From Sulfurihydrogenibium sp. YO3AOP1 (lineage in GTDB: Bacteria > Aquificota > Aquificia > Aquificales > Hydrogenothermaceae), in NCBI RefSeq assembly GCF_000020325.1, contig NC_010730.1, forward strand, positions 484,001 to 548,000: a stretch of DNA of 64,000 nucleotides. Direction: 5' to 3'. The notes beneath the pieces were generated by a model. The model did no database searches. It saw only the letters and a list, made by a program, of their open reading frames with translations, and was not told where the DNA came from. Positions 22,880-54,477 of this stretch are shown piece after piece. The first letter of the stretch is position 1. Each line of letters starts with the position of its first letter. Both the position numbers and the translations under genes were made by a program.

Positions 22880-22960
22880 TAAAAAGTGAGTAAGTGAGTA
22901 AGTGAGAGGTAAATTTAAGAGATTCTTCGCACGGCTGCAGAATAACGTTGCTATTACCTA
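22880..22960. repeat. GTGAG microsatellite plus half copy of the dispersed repeat
   Basis: Directly after the methyltransferase stop codon are three phased AGTGAGTA units, then a reversed left arm (GATTCTTCGCACGGCTGCAG, from 22921). No terminator hairpin with a T-tract is evident between the convergent genes. Confidence 0.55.
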
Positions 22961-26626: not shown

Positions 26627-26800
26627 ATACGGTCAGGTGAGAAATTAAATAAAAGTAGGAGTTTCTTCGCCGGCTTCAGAATGACAAACAAGGTTGCCTT
26701 TTCTCTGATGCGTATCATTCAACCTTTTCCTGTCATCCTGAGGACGTAAGTCCGAAGGATCTCCTTTATAAAAATCATTAATTTCTCACCCCAGCATATT
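26627..26800. repeat. near-complete dispersed MITE-like repeat
   Basis: About 170 bp. The left end is ATACGGTCAGGTGAGAAATT (26627-26646) and the right end AATTTCTCACCCC (from 26780). Inside is a reversed left arm (TTCTTCGCCGGCTTCAGAAT), a middle part shared with other copies (GATGCGTATCATTCAACC), and a GTCATCCTGAGGACGTAAGT arm. The right end runs into the coding end of the SLC13 transporter. No clear flanking direct repeat is seen at this copy. Confidence 0.75.
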
Positions 26801-29556: not shown

Positions 29557-29892
29557 CGGCTAACCTCGTTGGTTTTTTTGTGGTTTAAAAATATATTATC
29601 ATACTTTTTGTATAAGGTAAGAGAGTGAGGAGGTGAGAAAGTGAGCAAGTGAGAAGTGGAGTCAAGGGTGATGGTTGTAAGGCAAAACCTATGTGTTTTA
29701 TCTCAAGGGATGGCTTAAAAGCACTTATCTAATCAAGCTTTACCAGACCATATAAAAGACATCAATCAAGAGTATTTAGAAAGTCTTAAGAATAATACTC
29801 TTAGATTCCTAAAATCATATCTGCAAAAAATCAAAAAAGATATAATATTATTAAAGAAACAATCTTTTATAAAAAATTTGGGAGGTTTGATT
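29557..29892. other. intergenic stretch with GTGAG repeats and elbB leader
   Basis: No complete gene is seen. 29610-29660 holds GTGAG-rich repeats (GAGAAAGTGAGCAAGTGAGA). From 29719 a stop-free reading frame runs into elbB in the same phase; it lacks a convincing start and may be a decayed gene end. A TATAAT at 29841-29846 is a possible -10 for elbB without a clear -35 box. Confidence 0.5.
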
Positions 29893-30549: not shown

Positions 30550-32120
30550 AAATCTTAAAATCTTTTGAGATAGCCAACGCTGACAAACGAACTATTGAAA
30601 TAACCGGCATACCATCTTTGGTGCTTATGGAAAGTGCCGGACGGTCTGCTGTCCAAATAATTTTACAGCATTATCCAAATTCAGAAAAAATAACAGTAGT
30701 GGCAGGCAGTGGAAATAATGGCGGTGATGCGGTAGTTGTAGCAAGATACTTAGCAAAGCTTGGCAAAGAAGTATATTTATTTATTTTGGCAGAAAATGAA
30801 AGCAAACTTTCCCCTGATAATCTAAAAAATCTTGAAATCTTTAAAAACTTTGGATTTACATATCAGTTTATTACAGAAAAAAATCTTGATATTTTAGAAA
30901 AAAATCTTATTCAAACTGATTTAATCGTTGATGGAATTTTTGGAACAGGTTTTAAGCCACCTGTAAAATCTTATAGAGAAAATGTTATAAAACTTATAAA
31001 TCAAAGTAAAAAGCCTGTTGTAAGTATTGATATACCATCGGGTCTTAGTGCTGATACTGGCAACGTTGAAGGAGAAGTTATAAAAGCAGATATAACAATA
31101 GCCTTTGGCTATCCAAAAATCTGCCATGTCTTATACCCGGCATTGCAGTACTGCGGAAAAGTGTATGTTGCCGATATTAGCTTAAATCCTGTATACGCAG
31201 AAGTTGAAAGATATCTCATCACACCGGAAAATCTTACTTTGCCGGTTAGAGAAAAAACAGGTCATAAATACACCTTTGGTCATGTGTTGGTTGTTGGCGG
31301 TAGCGTTGGAAAATCAGGGGCTGTCATAATGGCGTGTAGGTCTGCTACAAAATCAGGAAGCGGTCTTACTACTGCAATAGTTCCAGATTGTATAAATCAA
31401 GTGTTGGAAACAAATCTCATTGAAGAGATGAGTATTCCGGTTAGGTCTGAAAATGGAATGTTTGGTGAAAATCCAGAGAAGATTTTAGAAATCATCCAGA
31501 ATGGTAAATTCTCTTCGGTTGTAGTTGGAATGGGAATGGGTGTATCTAAAACAAATCAAGAGATTGTAGAAAAACTCTTAACCATTGACAAACCTTTAAT
31601 CATTGATGCCGATGGAATAAATAATCTTGCTAATATAGAAAATTTTAGAGAAAAGTTATCAAATAGAACAAACATTACTGTACTGACACCACATACAGGA
31701 GAGTTTTCAAGATTAACAGGATTATCAGTTAAAGATATATCAGAAAACTATGAAGAAATAGCAAAAGAGTTTGCAATCAGCACAAAAAGCTATATAGTTT
31801 TAAAGTTTCATAGAATGGTTATTTTTACACCGAATGGTAAGATTTATTACAGCAATAAAGGAAATTCTGGAATGGCAACAGCCGGCAGCGGAGATGTTTT
31901 AGCCGGAATGGTTGGAGCATTGATAAACAGACTTAACCCGGAAGATGCTCTAAAGCTTGCTGTATACTTACACGGCTACGCAGGAGATTTGGCAGTTAAA
32001 GACGTTGGAGAAGAAAGTCTAAAGGCAACAGACATTATAGATTACATTCCAAAAGCACTTAAAAATTTAGCAGAGATAAAATCAAATCTAAAACAATCTT
32101 TGATTTATGAACTATCATAG
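30546..32120 (+). CDS. nnrD: bifunctional NAD(P)HX epimerase/dehydratase
   Basis: Repairs hydrated NAD(P)H. 524 residues with two domains. The N-terminal YjeF-type epimerase (about 1-215) has VVAGSGNNGGDAVVVARYL and VDGIFGTGF. The C-terminal ADP-dependent dehydratase (about 225-515) has HVLVVGGSVGKSGAV, DADGINNLA, LTPHTGEFSRL and the nucleotide-binding GNSGMATAGSGDVLAGMVGA. It follows elbB with a four-base overlap. Its last codons are duplicated at 32275-32310 next to tadA, as a probable result of repeat insertion. Confidence 0.95.
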   Translation: MKILKSFEIANADKRTIEITGIPSLVLMESAGRSAVQIILQHYPNSEKITVVAGSGNNGGDAVVVARYLAKLGKEVYLFILAENESKLSPDNLKNLEIFKNFGFTYQFITEKNLDILEKNLIQTDLIVDGIFGTGFKPPVKSYRENVIKLINQSKKPVVSIDIPSGLSADTGNVEGEVIKADITIAFGYPKICHVLYPALQYCGKVYVADISLNPVYAEVERYLITPENLTLPVREKTGHKYTFGHVLVVGGSVGKSGAVIMACRSATKSGSGLTTAIVPDCINQVLETNLIEEMSIPVRSENGMFGENPEKILEIIQNGKFSSVVVGMGMGVSKTNQEIVEKLLTIDKPLIIDADGINNLANIENFREKLSNRTNITVLTPHTGEFSRLTGLSVKDISENYEEIAKEFAISTKSYIVLKFHRMVIFTPNGKIYYSNKGNSGMATAGSGDVLAGMVGALINRLNPEDALKLAVYLHGYAGDLAVKDVGEESLKATDIIDYIPKALKNLAEIKSNLKQSLIYELS

Positions 32121-32310
32121 AAAAAGACAACAGGTAGGAATTTAAAAGATTATGAGATTCTTCGCCGGCTGTAGAATGACAAATAGGGTTGCCCTTAGTC
32201 AAGTATATGATTATCAAGTTTTCTTCGTCATCCTGAGGACGATGTCCGAAGGATCTCTTTTAAATCCTATATTTAAAACAAACTTTGATTAATGAACTAT
32301 CATAAAAAAT
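32090..32310. repeat. dispersed repeat flanked by ~35-bp direct duplication
   Basis: The repeat core (32126-32274) has a reversed left arm GATTCTTCGCCGGCTGTAG and a CATCCTGAGGACGATGTCCG arm. It is flanked by direct repeats 32090-32125 and 32275-32310 that match at 32 of the first 35 positions. The shared centre is ATGAACTATCATA. The left copy is the end of nnrD and the right copy the start of tadA. Confidence 0.75.
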
Positions 32311-32930: not shown

Positions 32931-32945
32931 AAGCAATCTCTTAGA

Positions 32946-33320
32946 TTATTTCGCAAACGGTAGCAACTTAATTATTAACTCTATCGCATCTTTGTTTATG
33001 AAGATGATTAAGAATGCCAAAACGATAAACATAATAGTAAACTTTCTATCAAGCTTTAACACTTCTTTTTCAATTTTAGCCTCTAATTCTGTTTTTAATA
33101 ATTCTAACTTTTGATAAACCATATCAATATCAGCCTTTGTAGCAAGTTCTTTAGTAAGCTCATCTTTAAGTTCAAGCTTTTTTTGCTGTGCTAAGCTTTC
33201 TGATTTTTTATCAAGTTCGTTATAAATCAGTTCAATAGTTTGTGCAATCTTTTTAGCTTCTTCTTTTCCTACCTTTTGTTCTAACTTCTCCAAAAGCTCA
33301 TAATCTATAACGTAAGCCAT
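32946..33320 (-). CDS. coiled-coil protein with C-terminal membrane anchor (copy 1)
   Basis: 124 residues: a long charged, coiled-coil N-terminal part (about 5-95) and a single C-terminal membrane helix (FTIMFIVLAFLIIFI), so tail-anchored in topology. It is reminiscent of DUF1640-type coiled-coil proteins, but the assignment is weak. A near-identical copy of 131 residues lies at 49357-49752, differing mainly by a seven-residue gap before the anchor. Its function is unknown. It is isolated by repeats on both sides. Confidence 0.7.
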   Translation of the reverse strand: MAYVIDYELLEKLEQKVGKEEAKKIAQTIELIYNELDKKSESLAQQKKLELKDELTKELATKADIDMVYQKLELLKTELEAKIEKEVLKLDRKFTIMFIVLAFLIIFINKDAIELIIKLLPFAK

Positions 33321-33382
33321 TTTAAATCTCCAATAGAGCTAATAATAAAAATTTATTCTATCATAAGAACATTTCAAAAAGA

Positions 33383-33680
33383 ATACGTCGGGTGAGAAAT
33401 TCAGTAAAGTAGGAGATTCTTCGCACAGCTGAAGAATGACAACTTTACTTTTGTAAGGGCAATTCATGAATCGCCCCTACTCTTTCACTTTCTTTACCAT
33501 CCCGAGGACGTAAGTCCGAAGGATCTCCTCCTTCAAAAAAAGGTAAGAAAGTGAGTAAGTGAGAAGTAAAAAGGCTGAGATTCTTTGCTTCGCTCAGAAT
33601 GACAAAAAGGCAAAATTAACATTCTTATCACAAATGCAAAAGGATAGTTTATTAAATCTTAATAATTTTTAGCAGCACTC
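33383..33680. repeat. composite dispersed repeat
   Basis: Starts ATACGTCGGGTGAGAAATTC, the same terminus as 54270, then a reversed left arm, the GCAATTCATGAATCGCC insert, CATCCCGAGGACGTAAGTCC, a GTGAGTAAGTGAGAAGT microsatellite and another partial arm near 33580. The rest of 33321-33756 holds only a terminator-like hairpin. Confidence 0.65.
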
Positions 33681-36829: not shown

Positions 36830-36841
36830 AAAATATAAATG

Positions 36842-38093
36842 TTAGTATATCAACTCTAAACCAACCCCAATATAATTTCCATCATGACTTGTAGCATTTG
36901 GACTATAAAAAGATTTTGGAGTACCTGCTTGTTTTACATAATGTAAATTTAATTTAATAAAGCCAGGTTTAATATACCAGTTAACACCTGCATCTGTAAC
37001 TTTGTAATTACCATTTCCATATATACTCTTTTCATCACCTTGCCATTCTTCATATGCAAAAGCAGGTTGTAAAATTGTTTTATTTGGAAGTCTAAAGTCA
37101 TACGCTGGCTGTTCTAACATGCCATACTCTATCACTATAATTTAAGGAAGAATTATCATAATTTCTTTTTAAAATATCATATTCGGCATTGAATATAAAG
37201 TTCTTATAGTTTGCAAGAATATCAAATCCTATCATTTGGTTATTTTTAAATGAAACATTAACAGGATTTAAAGCTAAATTACTACTATCTTTTCCTCTTC
37301 CTTGATATGCATAGTTAGCAGCAAAGGTTATACCGTTTCTTTTCCCAAAATAATTTAACTTTGGAACTAATGCATACTTTTTAAATTCAGGATCTCCAAG
37401 AGATAATGCTACTCTTGCAGTATAAAGCAAACTATCTCCACCAGTATATCCCGGACTGCTTCCTCCCATTTTATCAGGATTAAATACCCCAAATCTATAA
37501 TCGATTCCCCATTTTCCTTTCTCATCATTATATAAACCGCCTAAGTTAATACCAAGTTCTCTACCGGGCAGTGTTCCAACTAGATGTAGTCTTGGATAAA
37601 AGTTTGCTAAAGTTTTTTCAAAAGAAATTGAATCTAAAAATGACATATTATCTCTTCCTACTTGAGGTCTAAAATAACCTACAGTAATATTTGCCCAATT
37701 TTTATGAAGTGCGTAAGTGAAGTTAATGTCAAAAAGTTGAAATTGTTGATTATTTAGGTTTTGAGGAAAATAGCCAACGTTGTTAGATCTTGAAGTTGCT
37801 GTATGAGGATCAAGACCAACATTATTATATTGAAACATTACTAAATAAGATAAATCTTCTGTAATTGTACCTTTAAAGCCTAAGAAAGCTCTTCTTAAAA
37901 AGAAATCCATTCTGTTGTCGTATTTCTGACCGTTTTCTATTCTATCCATCGTATATACGCCCCAAAGCTGGTTCATGAAGAAGATTTCAAGCTCTTTCCC
38001 TTCTCCAAAATAAAACTTTGGTGCTGCGTTTGATGGTGTTGCAATGAGTGCAGATGCTACAAGCCCAATTCCTGTGAGTAAAACTTTTCTCAT
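36842..38093 (-). pseudogene. outer-membrane porin paralogue, frameshifted
   Basis: Two overlapping frames, 37098-38093 (331 residues ending DRVWHVRTASV) and 36842-37135 (starting in the other frame and continuing AYDFRLPNKTILQPAFAYEE), together match the intact porin at 38736-40040 end to end. That porin reads VWHVRGGYNFTLPNKTILEP at the junction. The break lies at about 37100-37120. The signal peptide MRKVLLTGIGLVASALIATP and the following 30 residues are almost identical to the intact copy. The C terminus ends in a beta-strand plus aromatic (GVGLELIY), typical of outer-membrane barrels. Either a decayed duplicate or a sequencing frameshift. Confidence 0.8.
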
Positions 38094-38121
38094 GTCTAAC
38101 CCCCTCTAAGTTTTAGTTTTA

Positions 38122-38619
38122 TTATTGTTGCTTATATTTTTTCATGTCATGAACAACAGTAGGTATTAATCTAAAACCTTCTTCCTGTATAGCTGCAAGC
38201 TTAAGAACACCGGCAGGAACTACTATTACAAAATCTTGTAAATCCTCTTCTTTAATTCCCAATGTTCTAACTACATTTCTACAAACATAAATTTTTAGAT
38301 TATAAACCTGTGTCATTGATCTAAGTCTGTCTATTGTTTCTTTGTATTTTTCATAATTTTTCTTAGAAAAGATCAACGCCTCTGGTCCATGGGAAACGAT
38401 AGCTAATTGATATTCACCAGCTGGATTAAACTCATCATAAGCTTTAATAAAATTAGATACAAATCTCAATGCAGTAGCTGTATCTTCAGGCGGAATTGAC
38501 CAATCAAAAACTGCTTTAATCTTGTCTGGAATTTTAGGATCAAACTTTGCCTTTTCTTCAGAATAACCTGAGAGAGAAATCAAGAGTAAACCCATTAAAA
38601 GAAAAACTAATTTTTTCAT
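38122..38619 (-). CDS. exported DsrE-like protein
   Basis: 165 residues with a signal peptide (MKKLVFLLMGLLLISLSGYS). The body is DsrE-like: YQLAIVSHGPEALIFSKKNY, then YNLKIYVCRNVVRTLGIKEE with a cysteine in the sulfane-carrier position, and DFVIVVPAGVLKLAAIQEEG. This is the second exported DsrE-like gene of the cluster and lies between the two porins. A periplasmic sulfur relay is plausible but inferred only from context. Confidence 0.7.
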   Translation of the reverse strand: MKKLVFLLMGLLLISLSGYSEEKAKFDPKIPDKIKAVFDWSIPPEDTATALRFVSNFIKAYDEFNPAGEYQLAIVSHGPEALIFSKKNYEKYKETIDRLRSMTQVYNLKIYVCRNVVRTLGIKEEDLQDFVIVVPAGVLKLAAIQEEGFRLIPTVVHDMKKYKQQ

Positions 38620-38682
38620 AAGAATTACCTCCCAAATAAAAGTTTTTTTAATTCATTAAAAAATGAGAATCAGATGAGAATC

Positions 38683-38721
38683 AGGAAGACAGGGGATGTT
38701 TTGTTCCAATCCCCAGCTTCC
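38683..38721 (-). terminator. hairpin after the intact porin
   Basis: On the minus strand GGAAGCTGGGGAT pairs with ATCCCCTGTCTTCC around a short loop, 15 bases after the porin stop codon. It is followed by two GAGAATCAG-type direct repeats and then a T-run, so termination may be inefficient. Confidence 0.5.
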
Positions 38722-38735
38722 AAACTTTTAAACTA

Positions 38736-40040
38736 TTAGAAAATTAACTGTAAGCCAACGCCTATGTAATCACCAGCTTTGCTATTTCCATTTGGATTAT
38801 AAGCTGATTTTGATGAGCCAGACTGTTTAACATAGTGTAAATTAAGCTTCATATTGTTTTGCTTTATATACCAGTTTAAACCAACGTCGGTTGTTTTGAA
38901 ATTACCATTACCGTTTAAGCTTGCTTTATCTCCTTGCCATTCTGCATAAGTAATGGCTGGTTCAAGAATTGTTTTGTTAGGAAGTGTAAAGTTATAACCA
39001 CCTCTTACATGCCATACTTTGTCTTTGTAATCCAAGCTTGATACATCAAAAGACCTTTTTAACTCGTCATATTCAGCGTTAAATGTAAAATCTTTATAGT
39101 TTGCAAGGATATCAAAGCCTAACATTTGGTTGTTTTTGAATTGAACTTTTACTGTTTTGGCTGAGCTGTCATAATAAGTTAGTTTCCATATAGTAGTATC
39201 TGCTAATGGGAATGTGTTGCTATCTTTTCCTCTTCCTTGATAAGCATAGTTAACTGCAAAAGTTATACCGTTTCTTTTTCCAAAGTAATTGACTTTATAA
39301 CCCATTCCGTATTTTTTCATCTCTGGGTCGCCATAAGACACAGCTACTCTTGCTGTGTAGAGTAAGTTATCCCCACCTGTTCCACCGCTAAATTTATCTA
39401 CGTTAAACACTCCAAAGTTATAGTTAAGCCCTAGCTTAGTTTTTTCATCATTGTACAAACCACCTATATTTACGCCAGTTTCACGACCAGGACCAGTTCC
39501 TACTAAATGCTGTCTTAGATAAAAGTTTGTTAAAGCTTTTTCAAAAGATAACACTTCAAATCCTGCTGTAATGCTTTCTCTACCAACCTGAGGTCTAAAG
39601 TAACCTACAGTAATATTTGCCCAATTTTTATGAAGTGCATAAGTAAACATAGCATCCCAAATATAGAATTGTTGATTTTGATTATTATTTGCGATACTAC
39701 CATTACTACTAACTAAACCAACGTTATTATTACTTTTTGCAAGTGCTGTATGCTGGTCCAAGCCTACGTTGTCATAAGCAAACCATACCCTCCAAGATAA
39801 ATCTTCTGTTATTGTTCCTTGAAATCCAAGTCTTGACCTTCTTAGGAAGAAGTCCATTCTGTTGTCGTATTTTTGACCACCTTCTACTCTATCCATTGTA
39901 TATACGCCCCAAAGCTGGTTTGCAAAGAAAATTTCAAGCTCTTTTCCTTCTCCAAAATAAAACTTTGGTGCTGCGTTTGATGGTGTTGCAATGAGTGCAG
40001 ATGCTACAAGCCCAATTCCTGTGAGTAAAACTTTTTTCAT
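38736..40040 (-). CDS. outer-membrane porin
   Basis: 434 residues: signal peptide MKKVLLTGIGLVASALIATP then SNA cleavage region, alternating beta-strand pattern throughout, and a terminal GVGLQLIF with the C-terminal phenylalanine typical of Bam-assembled barrels. It looks like a phosphate/OprO-type or general porin of Aquificota. In context it may pass thiosulfate or sulfate. The start ATG has AAGGAGG upstream. A dispersed repeat lies just before the gene, so its promoter must be in the roughly 40 bases left or within the repeat. Confidence 0.85.
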   Translation of the reverse strand: MKKVLLTGIGLVASALIATPSNAAPKFYFGEGKELEIFFANQLWGVYTMDRVEGGQKYDNRMDFFLRRSRLGFQGTITEDLSWRVWFAYDNVGLDQHTALAKSNNNVGLVSSNGSIANNNQNQQFYIWDAMFTYALHKNWANITVGYFRPQVGRESITAGFEVLSFEKALTNFYLRQHLVGTGPGRETGVNIGGLYNDEKTKLGLNYNFGVFNVDKFSGGTGGDNLLYTARVAVSYGDPEMKKYGMGYKVNYFGKRNGITFAVNYAYQGRGKDSNTFPLADTTIWKLTYYDSSAKTVKVQFKNNQMLGFDILANYKDFTFNAEYDELKRSFDVSSLDYKDKVWHVRGGYNFTLPNKTILEPAITYAEWQGDKASLNGNGNFKTTDVGLNWYIKQNNMKLNLHYVKQSGSSKSAYNPNGNSKAGDYIGVGLQLIF

Positions 40041-49223: not shown

Positions 49224-49356
49224 ATACATATTATTATCAAAATATTTGAATATAAAGATATTAGAATGTTTGGAAGGAATTGATGAATGTGAAGTATAAA
49301 ACCTATGTTTTTTGCTACGATTGACAGATCATATTGTTATAATTATAGAGAAGCGA

Positions 49357-49752
49357 TTATTTCGCAAATGGTAAAAGTTTGATTATTAACTCTATCGCAT
49401 CTTTGTTTATGAAAATAATTAAGAAAGCTAAGATTATGAACATCGTTGTAAACTTTTTATCAATCTTCTGTATATCATTTTGCAATTTTAATACTTCTTT
49501 GTCTATCTTGGCCTCTAATTCAGTTTTTAATAATTCTAACTTTTGATAAACCATATCAATATCAGCCTTTGTAGCAAGTTCTTTAGTAAGCTCATCTTTA
49601 AGTTCAAGCTTTTTTTGCTGTGCTAAGCTTTCTGATTTTTTATCAAGTTCGTTATAAATCAGTTCAATAGTTTGTGCAATCTTTTTAGCTTCTTCTTTTC
49701 CTACCTTTTGTTCTAACTTCTCCAAAAGCTCATAATCTATAACGTAAGCCAT
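49357..49752 (-). CDS. coiled-coil protein with C-terminal membrane anchor (copy 2)
   Basis: 131 residues, a second copy of the 32946-33320 gene. The first 88 residues are identical and the DNA matches almost base for base from the upstream leader (AGCTAATAATAAAAATTT) to about 49530. The 3' part diverges, with an extra KLQNDIQKI-like heptad before the membrane helix. It is a tail-anchored coiled-coil protein of unknown function. The extra seven residues equal one coiled-coil heptad, so register is kept. Confidence 0.7.
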   Translation of the reverse strand: MAYVIDYELLEKLEQKVGKEEAKKIAQTIELIYNELDKKSESLAQQKKLELKDELTKELATKADIDMVYQKLELLKTELEAKIDKEVLKLQNDIQKIDKKFTTMFIILAFLIIFINKDAIELIIKLLPFAK

Positions 49753-49814
49753 TTTAAATCTCCAAAAGAGCTAATAATAAAAATTTATTCTATCATAAAT
49801 CAAAAGGCAAATTT

Positions 49815-49913: not shown

Positions 49914-50143
49914 ATAATTCTACTTTTTAATTTTTAACATACCTTGGATTAGAAATTAGGGATTTTTATAAAATTTAAAAAGGAGATCCTTCGGACTTAC
50001 GTCCTCAGGATGACAGCGAAAGGCGGATTGATAAGCATTAAAGGAAGGATAACCTTATTTGTCATTCTGAAGCCGGCGAAGAATCTCCTATTTTTATTAA
50101 ATTTCTCACCAGACATATAATTCTACTTTCTAATTTCTAACAT
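49914..50143. repeat. complete dispersed repeat flanked by 27-bp direct duplication
   Basis: The element (49941-50116) runs from ACCTTGGATTAGAAATTAGG to AAATTTCTCACCAGACAT, with both GATCCTTCGGACTTACGTCC and GTCATTCTGAAGCCGGCGAA arms. It is flanked by 27-bp direct repeats, 49914-49940 and 50117-50143, identical at 25 of 27 positions (both begin ATAATTCTACTTT). The right duplicate lies just before the rph promoter. Confidence 0.85.
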
Positions 50144-54205: not shown

Positions 54206-54245
54206 AAAATTTTATCATAGAGGAGAGCCAAGTTATAATAATGTA

Positions 54246-54477
54246 AATAAGAAGGTAAAGAAGTTTAAAATACGTCGGGTGAGAAATTCATTAAAAGCAT
54301 GAGATTCTTCGCTTCGCGCAGAATGACAAATAAGGTTGCCCCTAATCAAGTATATGATTATCAAGTTTTCTTCGTCGTCCTGAGGACGAAGTCCGAAGGA
54401 TCTCTTTTTAAATTCTATAAAAACCGCTAATTTCTCACCCAAGGTATGTAAGTAAGAATATAAAGAAGGTTAAAATA
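54246..54477. repeat. complete MITE-like dispersed repeat with 27-bp flanking duplication
   Basis: Best-preserved copy. Terminal inverted repeats GGGTGAGAAATT (54277-54288) and AATTTCTCACCC (54429-54440), extended by ATAC/GTAT at 54270 and 54444. Internal arms are GATTCTTCGCTTCGCGCAG and GTCCTGAGGACGAAGTCCG. Flanking 27-bp direct repeats at 54246-54272 and 54451-54477 match at 23 of 27 positions, sharing TAAAGAAG and TTAAAATA. Confidence 0.85.

Follow-up and report, generated by a model that had tools for sequence, protein, structure and literature searches.

Dozens of copies of a short jumping element in a heat-loving bacterium, with long target duplications of variable length

A 174-bp MITE and its copies

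The window, that is, the whole 64,000-bp stretch of DNA analysed here, corresponds to bases 484001-548000 of the source genome (G000), a single contig of 1,838,442 bp with a GC content of 32.5%. A 174-bp MITE lies between divergent genes at window positions 54272-54445. Its imperfect inverted ends are 17 bp long (ACGTCGGGTGAGAAATT / ACCTTGGGTGAGAAATT), and the full element reads ACGTCGGGTG...CACCCAAGGT, the limits being set with the ends of its partner insertion sequence (IS, see below) as a guide. The 12-bp inverted ends that an earlier note had described from this DNA proved exact (GGGTGAGAAATT at 54277-54288 and AATTTCTCACCC at 54429-54440), and at 89% identity the inverted repeat can be extended to 19 bp. 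The flanking direct repeat, given there as 27 bp with 23 matches, is a real target duplication, but its length at this site is 31 bp, with 27 of 31 positions identical (4 mismatches). The focal element and the other copies in the window have the following features:

54241..54271, no strand: target duplication, left copy ATGTAAATAAGAAGGTAAAGAAGTTTAAAAT
54272..54445, + strand: MITE, non-autonomous, non-coding, 174 bp; end-to-end nhmmer match of 165 bits; empty site in a relative
54272..54288, + strand: left terminal inverted repeat ACGTCGGGTGAGAAATT; near-identical to the end of the 966-bp IS
54301..54328, + strand: interior module 1, GAGATTCTTCGC...AGAATGACA, a dispersed repeat in its own right
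54374..54404, + strand: interior module 2, palindromic, GTCGTCCTGAGGAC...GTCCGAAGGATCTC, a dispersed repeat in its own right
54429..54445, - strand: right terminal inverted repeat AATTTCTCACCCAAGGT
54446..54476, no strand: target duplication, right copy ATGTAAGTAAGAATATAAAGAAGGTTAAAAT; 27/31 identical, single in contig C49 of the relative G002
49941..50115, - strand: second end-to-end MITE copy, 186 bits
49913..49940, no strand: target duplication of the second copy, left; 28 bp, 26/28 identical
50116..50143, no strand: target duplication of the second copy, right
26632..26794, + strand: third near-complete copy; duplication not above chance
32136..32271, + strand: copy with eroded ends; ~30-bp flanking repeat AAAACAATCTTTGATTTATGAACTATCATA at about 32090-32119, placed by eye

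The element has the properties of a MITE: it is short and non-coding, it has terminal inverted repeats and many copies (60 end to end), it has its ends in common with an autonomous IS (966 bp in G025, and a crippled 843-bp form in the same genome), and target duplications occur together with empty sites in relatives. A 69-aa open reading frame across the focal MITE (..CHSARSEES.., window 54233-54442, minus strand) is spurious, and annotations of related genomes probably list translated repeats of this kind as proteins.

In the 1.84-Mb genome, the core of the terminal inverted repeat, GTGAGAAATT, was counted 135 times, compared with 8 occurrences of a reversed control. A family profile made from 23 copies was run with nhmmer over ~392 kb collected around the matches, and 195 non-overlapping family matches were obtained, 60 of them end to end, so the window's genome holds at least 60 end-to-end copies. 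Within the window, family sequence was found in 11 of the 19 gaps of at least 100 bp, in line with the earlier remark that arms of the element recur in most intergenic gaps. Other repeats were also seen in the window: a direct repeat (32944-33354 / 49355-49786) is 98% identical over 300 bp, with family repeats adjoining each copy; another dispersed repeat, GTGAGTAAGTGAGAGGTAAA, occurs near family modules at 22881-22913, 29628-29660, 33538-33570 and 2155-2193; and 36837-40026 consists of 1.9-kb tandem units with 71-83% identity, probably duplicated genes.

The interior of the window MITE is made of two palindromic modules, both of which recur in G000 without terminal repeats. In G025, from another family of the same order, MITEs with similar ends surround other palindromes, GGCAGGTTTTAAACCTGCC and GGCGGGTTCAAGACCCGCC. 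Because the modules occur without the terminal repeats and the G025 ends hold other palindromes, these results suggest that the ends may capture whichever dispersed palindromes the host has. Loci L127-L131 of G025 represent a second MITE family with similar ends and other interior palindromes, and at L127 two element ends stand side by side with a duplication between them.

As a null for the duplications, the alignment score of the left and right flank of each of the 60 copies was set against those of all 3,540 mispaired flanks. Seventeen of the 60 true pairs scored above the 99th percentile of the mispairs, and 8 of the 60 scored above every mispair, confirming that duplications across copies exceed chance, a check that the earlier note had proposed. 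In the strongly scoring copies, the matching flank blocks abut the element ends, and in 43 of the 60 the duplication was not above the 99% null. Among 18 MITE copies from two relatives, 9 were above the 99th percentile of mispaired flanks and none exceeded the largest mispaired score (36), probably because two of the 18 adjoin at one locus.

Empty sites were observed at two loci in G002, a relative of the same genus. On its contig C49 (left flank 96% identical), the orthologous focal site lacks the element and carries one target copy, reading ...AAGTTATAATA-ATGTAAGCAAGAATGTAAAGAATGTTAAAA-AGCATGC.... Similarly, the element at G000:622688 is flanked by two exact copies of the 24-mer ATATAATTATCTTATTCTATCAAT, which occurs once in G002, at the junction of both flanks (locus L115). 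The earlier note had proposed a comparison of empty sites in related strains, and at neither of the two loci tested did the relative carry the duplication without the element, the pattern named there as refuting its reading. Sulfurihydrogenibium yellowstonense SS-5 is a same-genus relative of the window's organism.

The partner insertion sequence

A search for the terminal inverted repeat covered 30 relatives. G025 contained 56 copies, including four that form pairs at a spacing of 956 bp, and these pairs represent a 966-bp IS with a 282-aa transposase, present in >20 copies that mostly share 95-100% amino-acid identity. The earlier note had proposed to look for a transposase whose ends carry the repeat of the MITE, and this relative has such a gene. 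The IS ends are of the ACGCYGGGTGAGAAATT...AATTTCTCACCCRRCGT type, and by inspection the MITE and the IS have only their ends in common. In G000, an 843-bp IS at about 348800-349642 has the ends ACCTCGGGTGAGAAAT...AATTTCTCACCCAAGGT and a 24-bp exact flanking repeat, and its transposase lacks ~40 residues, the putative second catalytic motif GDRGYRG among them; apart from this one crippled copy, no intact transposase of the partner IS was found in the window's own genome. Two members of the same genus, G004 and G006, carry a related IS of 963-964 bp, and the IS falls into two subgroups whose transposases are about 50% identical. In G002, ~20 contigs end within the same C-terminal part of the transposase, as would be expected if an IS in many copies had broken up the assembly. 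A conserved-peptide scan of the genome collection, with a reach of close relatives, gave matches in Aquificales only.

The transposase showed a weak match to Pfam DDE_Tnp_1 (1.6e-4). Its best NCBIfam match was NF033520 (IS982; 1.5e-7, 31 bits against a cut-off of 130), a weak match also seen in 7 of 8 homologues, and the IS5 model NF033581 scored 30.7 bits against a cut-off of 140. By sequence comparison, the partner IS appears to be a distant IS982/IS5-like relative under every curated cut-off. As candidates for the D, D and E motifs, VIDGT, GDRGYRG and QVVEGV were placed by eye. No match was returned by a PDB sequence search with the transposase; its predicted model has a pLDDT of 78, the top Foldseek hits were retroviral integrase, Mos1 and Metnase (E 0.2, none significant), and an RNase-H-like DDE fold is weakly supported by this prediction and by the Pfam match. 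In the literature covered on the repeat sequence and on Aquificales insertion sequences, the element was not described; coverage was partial, with ISfinder outside the search, and this is weak evidence.

Duplication length and cut sites

The target duplications of DDE transposases are normally of one fixed length, which is set by the rigid distance between two active sites. Thirteen G025 IS copies have exact, gap-free duplications of 23, 23, 23, 24, 24, 26, 27, 27, 28, 28, 28, 34 and 38 bp; the exact duplications of the related IS are 24, 26 and 33 bp in G004, and 27 and 32 bp in G006. IS duplication length genuinely varies between 23 and 38 bp, and since the duplications are perfect, the spread is not due to decay. 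The earlier note had called a duplication of this length unusual, and so it is, but it is not a fixed 27 bp, and the main oddity lies in the 23-38 bp variation and the C^AT cut points.

A minority of the G025 IS copies have no duplication. Rearrangement seems to have affected at least four of them, in two pairs that have swapped flanks. L121 and L122 (C1, about 160009-180443) have no repeats of their own, while their outer flanks share a 27-bp repeat; they likely form a 20.4-kb composite transposon. This unit sits between genes resembling hydrogenase-4-type membrane subunits. One sequence is found in both the right flank of L123 and the left flank of L124, ~860 kb apart in G025, but inverted in one relative to the other, as an IS-linked duplication or rearrangement would leave it.

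Twenty curated sites, chosen for a recognisable duplication, were used to define the cut points; besides the exact ones, the set includes the composite pair and a few sites that are offset by 2 bp or contain a mismatch. Among the 40 half-sites, C is found just outside in 75%, and A (85%) and T (90%) just inside, corresponding to 5'-C^AT on either strand. C precedes the duplication in 15/20 and G follows it in 15/20 (P about 6e-8 and 8e-8, with sites treated as independent), and AT starts 17/20 and ends 13/20 of the duplications (P 3e-11 and 1e-6 against the AT frequency inside duplications, again with sites as independent). G025 shows a strong C^AT preference. In the AT-rich Sulfurihydrogenibium copies it is less marked: AT usually remains, but the outer C/G is often missing. 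Exact TATAAT is present in 10 of the 20 duplications, compared with 16% of shuffles (P 5e-4). Each strand carries five of these, and the motif lies mostly in the middle part, often at a distance of 8-13 bp from the cuts. In several cases the cut coincides with the ATG of a plausible neighbouring gene, for example at L124, L126, L175, L178, L182 and L184.

Proposed mechanism, alternatives and known systems

Taken together, these results demonstrate transposition with common ends, a long duplication of variable length and sequence-defined joints. Judging from the sequences, it is very likely that the 0.96-kb Aquificales IS supplies the DDE-like transposase that mobilises the MITE in trans, through two C^AT-directed strand transfers. 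The transposase would cut at the 5'-AC...GT-3' ends of the element, presumably by DDE chemistry, and each 3'-OH would then attack one strand of the target 5' of an AT, with C^AT as the best site. The attacked ATs would lie 23-38 bp apart, flanking an AT-rich and often TATAAT-containing centre, and repair of the 23-38 nt gap would generate the long duplication of variable length. The two strand transfers may be largely independent, each at its own C^AT half-site, with a flexible AT-rich spacer in between. Spacing would then be variable because target half-sites, and not a rigid intasome geometry, position both strand transfers; this is the least certain step, to which we give about an even chance. 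More tentatively, and with some doubt on our side, a new DDE clade might pick a 5'-C^AT site on each target strand independently, 23-38 bp from one another, and join one transposon end to each, with the target setting the length, and insertions beside start codons might duplicate the whole core promoter, so that both neighbouring genes can still be expressed. The duplications are exact, they vary in length within limits, and their variation is linked to a short cut sequence on both strands; they are found with a small thermophile transposase whose IS has >20 near-identical copies in a single complete genome; given such variation and so many copies, uncoupling of the two strand transfers is directly testable.

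We read the centre of the duplication first as a flexible AT-rich core and second as a trace of promoter targeting, because strand symmetry favours a core, and the start-codon bias can result from purifying selection that removes insertions within genes. Promoter targeting would mean that the transposase inserts at RNA-polymerase-bound or melted -10/start regions, with the length given by the distance from promoter to start codon. The excess of TATAAT over shuffles, the many cuts at a neighbouring ATG and the position of the focal copy between divergent genes agree with this. However, TATAAT is equally frequent on both strands and mostly central, as in a symmetric bendable core, one G006 copy lies within a reading frame, and selection against genic insertions also leaves survivors at gene starts. 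Promoter targeting is in our view unlikely; we retain it as an alternative, given that a bias among surviving insertions could look like a promoter preference.

That the flank repeats are chance similarity in AT-rich DNA, or a pre-existing repeat that received the element, is suggested by the ambiguous look that single copies can have and by the 43 of 60 not above the 99% null, but 18 IS copies with exact 23-38 bp duplications, the excess over mispaired flanks and two empty sites with one target copy each make it extremely improbable. A REP-like or RNA-coding repeat, whose hairpins are the selected function, would account for interior modules that fold strongly and recur without terminal repeats, and it may coexist with transposition; as an explanation of the element it is improbable, since terminal repeats, duplications and empty sites point to transposition, and similar ends in G025 surround different palindromes. 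We also considered a MITE of the IS1202 family, whose long duplications of 16-28 bp (PMC10132070) overlap in length with those described here. This assignment is contradicted by its TGT...ACA ends and 394-507 aa transposase (PMC10132070), compared with AC...GT and 282 aa here, and the IS1202 model NF033594 has no match in the window's genome and exceeds its cut-off in 0 of 31 genomes, which leaves it a negligible probability.

Mobilisation in trans by the Aquificales IS remains our preferred explanation, and the partner IS resembles IS982 in its length of about 1 kb (0.85-1.3 kb in that family), a DDE-like transposase of ~280-300 aa, 5'-AC ends and a T at position 9. However, its repeats are 23-38 bp, compared with 2-10 bp in IS982 (PMC7335449), and because both this repeat length and the curated cut-off (31 bits versus 130) are missed, we do not file it as an IS982 member; the IS5 cut-off (NF033581) is likewise not reached. 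Long duplications of variable length have precedent in IS1549/IS1634 and IS1182. In IS1549 and IS1634, from Mycobacterium smegmatis and Mycoplasma mycoides, repeats of 8-514 bp differ from copy to copy, with no mechanistic model (PMC2266710). These elements are 1.5-2 kb long, with other ends and an IS4-related transposase, to which the 966-bp partner IS has no match in Pfam/NCBIfam; by comparison, the duplications described here span a narrow range and have cut points defined by sequence. IS1182 is similar in its long range of direct repeats (2-60 bp, quoted in PMC7335449), and no IS1182 model is among the NCBIfam matches of the transposase up to E = 1. Like other bacterial MITEs, the focal family is short and non-coding, with the terminal repeats of an autonomous IS and many intergenic copies, but it differs from them in the length of its duplication and in its chimeric interior of dispersed palindromes.
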